From an uncultured Pelagibacteraceae bacterium (GTDB lineage: Bacteria > Pseudomonadota > Alphaproteobacteria > Pelagibacterales > Pelagibacteraceae), in assembly GCA_902559935.1 (NCBI GenBank), contig CACEJN010000007.1:1-43312 (forward strand): 43,312 nt of DNA, given 5' to 3'. Position 1 is the first letter of the stretch. Each line of letters opens with the position of its first letter. This document shows positions 13,513-15,160 of the stretch, piece after piece. The position numbers and the translations under genes are program-made. The notes under the pieces were generated by a model. It did no database searches. It was not told the origin of the DNA and saw only the letters and a program-made list of their open reading frames with translations.

Positions 13513-14407
13513 GCTTTGCCATTGCTTTTATGTGAGCAGGACCAGTTTCACAACAACCTCCAATAATTGTTGCTCCATTTTCTTTAAATTTTTTTGCAAT
13601 TTCATGAAATTTATCTGGTGTAAGATCATGTCTTTTGCCTAAAAACTCATTTGGATTTCCCTTAGTTTTTAAATAATTAGCCGTGTATCCATCTTTTGGT
13701 TTAGTGGTCATAAATCCATTTAATTTAAATCCAAATGGAACGTTTAATTTTTTGATTTCTTCAAGATTGCGCTCATAATTTTCAGGTGAAACACAAGATA
13801 ACATAACACCTAAAAGATTTTCATCAATAATACTTTTAATATTTGAAATTTTTTCACCACTAGGTAGTTTTGTGCCTTCTGAAATATGAATTCCTATTAA
13901 ATAAGGTTTCTTGAATTCTTTAATTGCCTCAATACCACATCTAAACTCTCTAATGCTGCTCCAAACATCAAAGTAATAAAAGTCTACATATTCATTTAAC
14001 AATTTAGCCTGTTCATTAAAATCTTTAGTGATTTCAGCCTCACTTCTTCTATCCTCTTCATAAGTTAAACGTTGAGGTGGCAAACCTCCAGCAATCATTA
14101 TATTTGGATATTCATTTTTCACTTTTAAAGCAATTTCTCCTGCTTTTTTATTAAGATATTCGAATTTATCTTCAATATTGTTTTCACTTAGTCTTTTTCT
14201 TCTTGTTGTAAAAGTTGTTGTAACAATTACTTCTGCTCCAGCTTTTACAAAATCTTTGTGGGTATGCTCTACCAATTCATGATATTCAGAATTTAGTATC
14301 GCATTAGCACTCCATAAAGTTCCATTTGGCTTCATGCCACGAGCTAAAAGCTCTTGACCCATTCCACCATCCAATATTCTCGTCTCTTTAAAAAAATTAA
14401 TATCCAT
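13505..14407 (-). CDS. Homocysteine S-methyltransferase (BhmT/MmuM type)
   Basis: 300-residue zinc-dependent methyltransferase that makes methionine from homocysteine using betaine or another methyl donor. The three zinc cysteines are C205 (LSCVSPEN) and C285-C286 (GGCCETGP), and the N-terminus ILDGGMGQELLARG is typical. Length suits the MmuM/BhmT single-domain group. In SAR11, homologues are annotated bhmT and linked to glycine betaine or dimethylglycine use; the donor here is not proven. Its 163-bp leader holds a SAM-II and then a SAM-V riboswitch, strong evidence for a role in methionine supply. The ribosome binding site GAGGA (14416-14412) is four bases from the ATG. Confidence 0.92.
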   Translation of the reverse strand: MDINFFKETRILDGGMGQELLARGMKPNGTLWSANAILNSEYHELVEHTHKDFVKAGAEVIVTTTFTTRRKRLSENNIEDKFEYLNKKAGEIALKVKNEYPNIMIAGGLPPQRLTYEEDRRSEAEITKDFNEQAKLLNEYVDFYYFDVWSSIREFRCGIEAIKEFKKPYLIGIHISEGTKLPSGEKISNIKSIIDENLLGVMLSCVSPENYERNLEEIKKLNVPFGFKLNGFMTTKPKDGYTANYLKTKGNPNEFLGKRHDLTPDKFHEIAKKFKENGATIIGGCCETGPAHIKAMAKLK

Positions 14408-14414
14408 TGTGTCC

Positions 14415-14471
14415 TCACTTTTTTAGTGCTTTAGCTTTATGCTAGGTGCACAATACAGTTCAACTACCTTG
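14415..14471 (-). promoter_or_regulatory. SAM-V riboswitch
   Basis: Read on the minus strand, the leader contains AAGGTAGTTGAACTGTATTG, then TGCACCTAGCATAAAGCTAA and AGCACT, closely matching the SAM-V pattern as I recall it. P1 can form between AGGT (14469-14466) and ACCT (14447-14444); the loop carries the conserved GAACTGTATTG and the junction the conserved GCATAAAGCTAAAG. A small hairpin CACT/AGTG (14428-14416) runs straight into the GAGGA ribosome binding site. SAM-V elements are known from marine alphaproteobacteria and act by hiding the ribosome binding site when S-adenosylmethionine is bound. Pairing was drawn by eye. Confidence 0.88.
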
Positions 14472-14487
14472 CTTATTTGATTATTTT

Positions 14488-14545
14488 GGGATTTCCATTT
14501 TAGCAGTTTATGCCCGCAATAGGATCAAATCGGCAATTACCTTTT
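14488..14545 (-). promoter_or_regulatory. SAM-II riboswitch
   Basis: Upstream of the SAM-V element the minus strand reads TTGCCGATTTGATCCTATTG followed by CGGGCATAAACTGCTAAAAT and GGAAAT. This matches the SAM-II layout: a P1 stem (TGCC 14535-14532 with GGCA 14514-14511), a loop with GATTTgAtCCtATTGC, then TAAActGCTAAAatGG, whose GG can pair back to the loop CC as the pseudoknot. The 17-base linker to SAM-V is A/T-rich. Tandem SAM-II/SAM-V leaders have been described for this clade ahead of homocysteine methyltransferase genes. Pairing was drawn by eye. Confidence 0.85.
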
Positions 14546-14569
14546 AATTGATAAATGAATGTTTGTAAA

Positions 14570-15160
14570 CTATTTATCTAAAGTAATTTTAGCATTAAAA
14601 GAAAAAGACCTTCTTTCAGCATTAATATTAAATGGATATGCCGTATGCATTAAATAGTTTGGAAAAATTATCAAGTCTCTTTGTTTAGGTACAATGTTAA
14701 AAATACTTCTGCTCAAAAAACCTCTTTGTCCGTTTATAAAATCAATTGTGCCGTTAGTCTTATCTTTTTTGTTTTTTAAAAATTTATTCTTAGTCATATC
14801 TTTTGGCACTTTTAAATAACCTACACCAGATATATCTCCATCATGATAATGAATAGGGTTATATTCATCTTTAAATTGACTAACTACCCATAAATTTAAT
14901 ATTTTTATATTTTTAACTTTTTTAATTTTTTCATTTTTAAGAAAATCTTTAATATTTTTTTTTATTTCTCTCTCTAAATTTTTTTTTATAAAATTATTTG
15001 AAATTTTAATTTCTTTTTTAATTTGACTAGCTAGTTTAGAGCTATAATCATTATTTTTTGTTAATACTTTATTATCAATCTCTTTGTTCAAGATATTTAA
15101 AAATTTCTTTGAAATTTTTGTCTTTCCAATTGATGGACCAAAAGGTTTAATATTTTTCAT
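14570..15160 (-). CDS. Putative 2OG-Fe(II) oxygenase (TIGR02466-like)
   Basis: 196-residue protein with a lysine-rich helical N-terminal half and a C-terminal double-stranded beta-helix-like half. Candidate metal ligands are in HYHDGD (residues 104-109) and H171 in LMHTAYPF, with R182/R183 in ERRSFSFNAK as the 2-oxoglutarate-binding arginine; the order fits the TIGR02466 oxygenases. The substrate is unknown. It lies downstream of the TauE/SafE gene on the same strand (37-bp gap), and the SAM riboswitches begin just after its stop, so read-through into the methyltransferase would have to pass them. The family call is from the motif pattern only. Confidence 0.68.
   Translation of the reverse strand: MKNIKPFGPSIGKTKISKKFLNILNKEIDNKVLTKNNDYSSKLASQIKKEIKISNNFIKKNLEREIKKNIKDFLKNEKIKKVKNIKILNLWVVSQFKDEYNPIHYHDGDISGVGYLKVPKDMTKNKFLKNKKDKTNGTIDFINGQRGFLSRSIFNIVPKQRDLIIFPNYLMHTAYPFNINAERRSFSFNAKITLDK

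Follow-up and report, generated by a model that had tools for sequence, protein, structure and literature searches.

The leader and its genes

The DNA analysed here, referred to as the window, is a stretch of 43,312 nucleotides from contig CACEJN010000007.1 of an uncultured Pelagibacteraceae bacterium. On its minus strand, 162 bases lie between a 2OG-Fe(II) oxygenase-like gene and a gene for an mmuM-like homocysteine S-methyltransferase (Table 1). The latter is assigned through its PF02574 domain, in agreement with the gene that a sequence-only reading of this DNA had placed downstream of two riboswitches, and no NCBIfam equivalog matched the protein at its cut-off. Over the 259 aa compared, the protein is 72% identical to that encoded at the mmuM locus of HTCC1062. 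The SAR11 origin proposed in the same reading was also borne out.

The half of the leader nearest to the gene is occupied by a SAM-V aptamer. It is placed in RF01826 since it passes the curated score of this family and lies where a methionine gene has its ribosome binding site. Two bases of the GAGGA motif are shared with the 3′ end of the SAM-V match (14415), and the PF02574 gene starts at 14407. SAM binding has been published for the metY and bhmT copies of SAM-V (PMC6061858). In a pseudoknot-free fold, the stretch UAUUGUG of SAM-V also pairs with the sequence CACAAUG around the start codon (window 14405-14416), a pairing that may be due to chance, as the site differs in many other mmuM leaders.

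Table 1. Positions of the genes and leader elements in the window
Feature	Position	Strand	Evidence or remark
2OG-Fe(II) oxygenase-like gene	14570-15160	-	PF13759
Compact SAM-II-type aptamer	14493-14536	-	R2 54.1 bits, E 5.8e-16; R1 57.7 bits
Compact SAM-II P1	GCC 14532-14534 with GGC 14512-14514	-	read from sequence
Compact SAM-II P2a	UCC 14522-14524 with GGA 14494-14496	-	read from sequence
Linker between aptamer matches	14479-14492	-	14 nt, no terminator; terminator scan, read directly
Possible anti-aptamer strand AUCAAAUAAGCAA	14469-14481	-	predicted pseudoknot-free minimum-energy fold; duplex energies
SAM-V aptamer	14415-14478	-	RF01826, 75.9 bits, gathering score 41, E 7.8e-11 (whole window)
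Ribosome binding site GAGGA	14412-14416	-	read directly; 4 nt 5′ of start codon
mmuM-like homocysteine S-methyltransferase gene, 300 aa	13505-14407	-	PF02574, E 1.6e-53

A compact SAM-II upstream of SAM-V

The sequence-only reading also placed a SAM-II aptamer upstream and proposed a search with covariance models for both classes. The match to SAM-V was strong, while SAM-II gave sub-threshold scores only. The Rfam scan returned no SAM-II match at the cut-offs of 44 bits (RF01726) and 36 bits (RF00521), and none at E<=1 on a stretch of 241 bases. When 91 bases were scanned with 4227 families, the two best-scoring ones were nevertheless RF01726 (14.2 bits, E 1.2) and RF00521 (12.2 bits, E 0.78).

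In SAR11, such low scores are no argument against a SAM-II, since those of bhmT and metX in HTCC1062 also fail. The bhmT copy reaches 15.5 bits with RF00521, and its SAM binding has been published, with a KD of 1.2 uM (cited in PMC5069961). The other copy (218239-218313), which is followed by an ORF that looks MetX-like by eye, reaches 26.7 bits. In effect, across the five SAR11 genomes that were searched, no SAM-II attained the RF00521 cut-off (the best had 27.8 bits of the 36), nor was any SAM-II above cut-off seen in the bhmT-type leaders among the 12 loci scanned. Thus, surveys that rely on this RF00521 cut-off undercount SAM-II in SAR11.

The assembly of the window itself, which is 57.8% complete, contains 10 sub-threshold RF00521 matches at E<=10, of which two lie directly 5′ of the only two SAM-Vs of the assembly. 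Matches this weak are at noise level and were also present in 14 of 14 control genomes, so it is their position 5′ of SAM-V that counts; by rough arithmetic, the odds of such a placement by chance are, for any one SAM-V, below one in ten thousand.

A more specific search was made with R2, a sequence-only model that, like A5, was built from 20 metY rows. The window and all mmuM leaders were excluded from it to avoid circularity. R2 gave a single match at E<=10 in the window, at 14493-14536, with the sequence UUGCCGAUUUGAUCCUAUUGCGGGCAUAAACUGCUAAAAUGGAA on the minus strand. The tandem of a compact SAM-II and a SAM-V in this leader is thus confirmed as real, the two different SAM-type aptamers being identified by R2 and RF01826, respectively. 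The coordinates of the sequence-only reading for both aptamers were correct, as was the overlap of GAGGA with the end of SAM-V.

Structure, core, and covariation

The compact element has the shape of a shortened SAM-II, with a P1 of 3-4 bp and 4-9 nt from P1 to GCUAAA. Its core in the window reads GAUUUGAU / UAUUGC / GCUAAAA. It is assigned to SAM-II as an H-type pseudoknot in which P1 and P2 (the latter via P2a) are both backed by compensatory change, and in which the SAM-contacting core is kept, namely, the U's of L1, the UU before GC, and the UAAA of P2. In SAM-V, the contacts to SAM are known to be made by U9 and U10 of the third strand, U19, U20, and U47-A48-A49-A50 (PMC6061858); in our mapping, these nucleotides appear to have counterparts in the compact SAM-II. 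GAUUU, UUGC, and GCUAAA are invariant in both alignments described below, although this invariance and the conservation figure are in part a product of the selection patterns, which demanded much of the core.

The compensatory changes among relatives that were to be expected of real stems were found in P1, where A-U replaces G-C, and in P2a. Alignment A1 contains 87 distinct rows from 107 elements (L062, which is too short, and duplicates were left out) and shows two-sided change in P1 (GCC/GGC) and P2a (UCC/GGA). Neither the percentage paired nor the number of two-sided pairs was reached by any of 500 shuffles, while the number of pair types exceeded the shuffles weakly (reached by 38/500). 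When the partner strand was slid as a control, however, the slide of -3 scored a higher covariation than the proposed register (0.027 vs 0.018). A second, more diverse alignment (A4) of 49 rows combines 30 of the 87 A1 rows with 19 of 21 further rows, L312 and L313 being left out; its pattern did not pick up several metX copies, nor L171 with its N letters. Two-sided cells number 12 in this alignment, compared with 1.8 for shuffles (0/500), but pair types do not exceed the shuffles (7 vs 6.9; 376/500). In these 49 rows, hand-anchored, P2a is UCC/GGA in 33, ACC/GGU in five, AUC/GAU in three, another triplet helix in four, and absent in four. The inner P2 pairs are invariant and, since they never vary, uninformative. 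In one element (L105), two P1 pairs are broken.

The compact element is apparently conserved at least as well as the neighboring SAM-V. Mean majority identity per column is 95.2% in 34 mmuM and 94.3% in 68 metY leaders for the compact element, compared with 91.7% and 91.0% for SAM-V, and falls to 56-57% in the five bases 5′ of the compact element.

Distribution among relatives

Of the 201 genomes examined from the genus, 100 contain SAM-V, with 136 sites in all. In 107 of these leaders (70 metY, 36 mmuM, and L055, which the script left unassigned and which reads as metY), it is preceded by the compact SAM-II. A longer SAM-II with an intrinsic terminator precedes it in 22 others (18 bhmT, three unassigned, and one metY). 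The remaining seven are all metY leaders: L015 is truncated at a contig end but has the 3′ part of the compact element, L081 and L144 have a SAM-II-like sequence of the longer kind with no terminator pattern, and L108, L139, L142, and L143 have a SAM-V with no SAM-II seen upstream. In the genus genomes examined, the terminator-free pair is the commonest arrangement of SAM-V leaders.

R1, a model restricted to the compact element, matches 107 of the 136 SAM-V leaders, equal to the count by pattern. Over the 201 genus genomes, it matches at 110 places in 82 genomes, all but three of them adjoining a SAM-V, and in a sample of the family it is found in 79 of 297 genomes and eight of 14 genera. A fixed-pattern scan of named genomes gave at least 120 stretches, 80 of them with listed titles. 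Among the matches listed, all 80 titles are Pelagibacteraceae, Pelagibacterales, or Ca. Pelagibacter, and a SAM-V follows the pattern after 41-52 nt in 116 of the 120 stretches; of the other four, one is cut by a contig end and three are mmuM leaders with no good SAM-V. The exact core pattern had no matches in viral contigs.

R2 also matches the compact copies at metX in other SAR11 genera (L161, L163, L167, and L174, at 23-33 bits), the mmuM leader of HTCC1062, and five mmuM leaders with no intact SAM-V, while it matches none of 14 terminator-type leaders. In HTCC1062, the best-studied strain of the genus, the metY leader has the compact SAM-II 5′ of SAM-V as well (G226:C1:1005762-1005805), and the SAM-V and compact matches of this strain coincide with intergenic regions in the list of Meyer 2009 (PMC2704228). 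The five mmuM leaders just mentioned are distinct sequences in which the compact SAM-II is intact and SAM-V is deleted or degraded (L238, L246, L298, L299, and L300, with L279 identical to L299). They can be regarded as natural knock-outs of SAM-V.

A fourth SAM-V of HTCC1062 (L307; 1126163-1126227, 57.6 bits) follows the preceding ORF closely, and the 150 bases upstream of this SAM-V show no SAM-II. We take it to be the osmC copy.

The terminator question

The sequence-only reading suggested that SAM-II could act on transcription, as in the tandems described to date. The search for an intrinsic terminator did not favor this proposal. The consensus scan of 14300-14700 found none, and neither the leader of the window nor any of 199 distinct compact leaders has a terminator-like site. 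Among 221 distinct leaders, terminators were found in 0 of 199 compact and 22 of 22 terminator-type ones, a contrast that is partly built in, as the groups had been split beforehand by a T-run pattern. By gene, the terminator group takes up 0/48 mmuM, 3/150 metY, and 16/16 bhmT leaders. The three metY leaders (L162, L165, and L303) are from other genera, and the group includes no metY or mmuM leader of the genus Pelagibacter. Given the lack of a terminator in compact leaders, the tandem of the window is not a simple copy of the described one.

Sister genera offer a clue to how this arrangement came about. In all five metY leaders inspected from g3 and g6 (L162, L165, L166, L171, and L173), the order is compact SAM-II, GC hairpin with a long T run, and SAM-V. 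Because a terminator is kept there between the two aptamers, the arrangement of the genus Pelagibacter would be explained most simply by terminator loss. The copies inspected from g7, g9, g12, and g4 lie 5′ of metX with no SAM-V, and that of g5 (L176) precedes metW. MetX was identified by NCBIfam for L161, L167, and L177 and by eye for the other copies. In L177 (g4), the SAM-II at 1044-1095 is followed by a GC hairpin and a T run just before the metX start codon, that is, a platform of the transcription type, while metX SAM-IIs in sister genera have no T run.

Hexamers resembling a -10 (sigma-70) box were no commoner than in shuffles in the 15 bases 5′ of the compact element, with counts per five positions of 22 and 19 against 20 in metY leaders, and 11 and 5 against 10 in mmuM leaders. 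Farther upstream, at 41-45 bases 5′ of the compact element, such hexamers peak in metY leaders (81 vs 20 expected; 142 leaders).

Relation to known systems

In the published SAM-II/SAM-V tandem, SAM-II is described as always lying 5′ of an intrinsic terminator (PMC9481103). The tandem of the window agrees with this class in having SAM-II 5′ of SAM-V in one leader but departs from it in that no intrinsic terminator was found after SAM-II. For HTCC1062, the table rows consulted in Meyer 2009 give the tandem at bhmT only (PMC2704228), the pairing is called relatively rare in PMC5069961, with one locus named, and for the metY and mmuM leaders the literature, as far as it was available, names SAM-V alone. 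In the literature searched, which did not cover the founding paper (Poiata 2009), a SAM-II 5′ of the SAM-V of metY or mmuM is undescribed.

The closest known system is the bhmT tandem of Pelagibacter ubique (PMC11508383), which shares with the tandem of the window the order of the aptamers, the SAM-V class, a methionine gene, and a SAR11 host. By contrast, the bhmT tandem has a terminator between the aptamers and a longer P1 (GCGC...GCGC, from its sequence). In the compact tandem, no terminator was found, P1 is short, and the genes concerned are mmuM and metY, with 14 nt between the matches in the copy of the window. The SAM-IIs of metX (L161, L163, L167, and L174) have the same core and compact size as that of the window, but have their 3′ ends some 20-35 nt from the start codon and no SAM-V after them, whereas in the leader of the window SAM-V intervenes. 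The SAM-V of metY (6FZ0) is of the same class as that of the window, and the structure and calorimetry reported for it were obtained on SAM-V alone, in RNAs of 52-55 nt (PMC6061858). Finally, the metA SAM-II of S. meliloti acts on translation at a distance (PMC9373788); unlike the compact SAM-II of the window, it has a terminator after the aptamer and, in the available text of this source, no SAM-V is mentioned. The tandem of the window is a terminator-free variant, which predominates in the genomes sampled from the genus, with a putative function for its compact half.

The bhmT leaders are themselves heterogeneous. In 12 of 18 tandem leaders (L033, L036, L072, L074, L076, L079, L084, L087, L089, L091, L099, and L114), alongside which the leader of HTCC1062 (L160) is listed, SAM-V lies away from the bhmT start, and the GPVICAE codons are found 111-126 nt past the GCAC end of SAM-V. 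The gap often has a hairpin-prone stretch similar to AGAGG...CCTCTT, and four of the leaders have an ATG ORF of 20-28 aa there. In L124, L133, L134, and L136-L138, the remaining six, bhmT starts directly after SAM-V.

Proposed mechanism and alternatives

Both aptamers are present, conserved, and covarying among relatives, and no intrinsic terminator was found between them. We consider it probable that they are two SAM sensors in series, a shortened SAM-II pseudoknot at the 5′ side and then a SAM-V pseudoknot with its end at the ribosome binding site, and that these sensors would act on translation or on the level of mRNA instead of by intrinsic termination. As the SAM-contacting core nucleotides are kept, it is very likely that both bind SAM. 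At high SAM, both would very probably fold and the gene be turned off, with SAM-V blocking the access of ribosomes, by analogy with what has been published for other copies. For the compact SAM-II, the reading that we favor by a little is that it causes no intrinsic termination and would add a second SAM-dependent step at the level of translation or mRNA, probably following the loss, in an ancestor, of the terminator still present in sister genera.

Under sulphur limitation, mmuM mRNA of HTCC1062 increases 6.08-fold and metY mRNA 7.14-fold (PMC5069961, Table 1), an increase beyond what would follow directly from a SAM-V that acts on translation only. A second step at the mRNA level could help to explain it, as could mRNA decay, through which changes in translation can alter mRNA. 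Additionally, the SAM-II domain of the bhmT tandem responds to SAM when alone but little in the full-length RNA (PMC11508383), so that a bound SAM-II in the leader of the window is not certain.

The response of metY and mmuM mRNA to sulphur would also fit the logic published for the bhmT tandem (PMC9481103), where SAM-II terminates transcription, here through an unrecognized or Rho-dependent terminator, and SAM-V blocks translation. A terminator is indeed kept in the five metY leaders of g3 and g6 and in bhmT-type leaders. Nevertheless, no terminator-like site was found in the leader of the window or in any of the 199 compact leaders, although the scan detects one in all 22 terminator-type leaders, and this division of labor seems unlikely for the leader of the window. 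It is still less likely that the compact AAAANGGA serves as a standby or distant Shine-Dalgarno sequence that aids translation from the start farther downstream and becomes masked in P2 on SAM binding. There is a precedent in the metA SAM-II, whose internal SD is required for translation starting 74 nt downstream (PMC9373788), and the GG of the compact element, which is the P2a partner, is invariant in the 87 A1 rows. P2a alone, however, already requires GGA, and in nearly all leaders found, SAM-V and its own ribosome binding site intervene, although the compact element does persist in the five mmuM leaders with no intact SAM-V.

The core is intact in these same five leaders, and this speaks against the least probable of the alternatives, namely, that the compact SAM-II is a decaying remnant of the terminator deletion and SAM-V the sole working part. 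Such decay might account for the low Rfam scores, for the lack of a visible expression platform of its own, and for the four metY leaders with no compact SAM-II. On the other hand, a remnant is not expected to be conserved at least like the adjacent SAM-V or to show compensatory changes, as the compact element does. Two SAM sensors in series thus remain the preferred reading.

A possible coupling helix

If two sensors do act in series, they might be coupled through the linker. In the window, the strand AUCAAAUAAGCAA is complementary at 11 of 13 positions to 14524-14536, which is the 5′ strand of the compact SAM-II and comprises the UUGC at the side of P1 and the loop AUUUGAU. An alternative helix of this kind would be incompatible with P1 and with the SAM-binding third strand of the compact SAM-II. 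Next to SAM-V, the final 12 bases of the linker are 95.3% conserved in metY leaders, where they match the aptamers in conservation, and 80.6% in mmuM leaders. In 146 of 147 distinct metY leaders, these bases include UCGG or UUGG, which is complementary to the GCCGAU within the compact SAM-II. In a fixed register, which was picked after the metY sequences had been seen, 141 of the 147 pair at five or six of six positions, and the other six have the motif shifted by two bases; 20 of 48 mmuM leaders pair at five and the rest at fewer, and bhmT leaders at 1-3. The pairing of the window is longer and in a register other than that of metY.

Support for this helix relative to shuffled linkers is modest. 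Duplex energies gave p<=0.05 in 22 of 93 distinct leaders. In folded ensembles of 50 of the 147 metY and all 48 mmuM leaders, 38 of the 98 beat all 10 shuffles, where about nine were expected, compared with 0 of 16 bhmT leaders. As the sequences are related, these counts are optimistic, and the helix is best treated as a hypothesis. The mean pair probability was 0.91 in 140 metY leaders (pseudoknot-free folds, with no control). It is therefore only tentatively that we propose a coupling in which the alternative helix would exclude the SAM-II fold at low SAM. It would resemble the linker-mediated masking of SAM-II in the bhmT tandem (PMC11508383).

A stronger version of this idea is that, in the genus Pelagibacter, the terminator-type tandem became one coupled switch, with two aptamers that cooperate on translation and no terminator. 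In that case, the 5′ strand of the compact SAM-II would pair with its own P1/triplex partner when SAM is bound and with the linker strand at the side of SAM-V when SAM is free. We regard this version as rather doubtful.

Implications

The metY leader of Pelagibacter is a model for SAM-V and the source of its crystal structure, yet the literature available to us does not present the RNA upstream of SAM-V in metY and mmuM leaders as an aptamer. Should the compact SAM-II bind SAM, affinities measured on SAM-V alone would miss half of the sensor. The finding also bears on why the SAM-II of bhmT is silent in full-length RNA (PMC11508383). Moreover, the leaders form a natural series (SAM-II alone, SAM-II with terminator and SAM-V, SAM-II with SAM-V but no terminator, and SAM-II after the loss of SAM-V) that allows tests of how a riboswitch exchanges its expression platform. 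Finally, if the compact SAM-II binds SAM, tandems would make up most of the SAM-V leaders sampled from this genus, which is abundant in the ocean.
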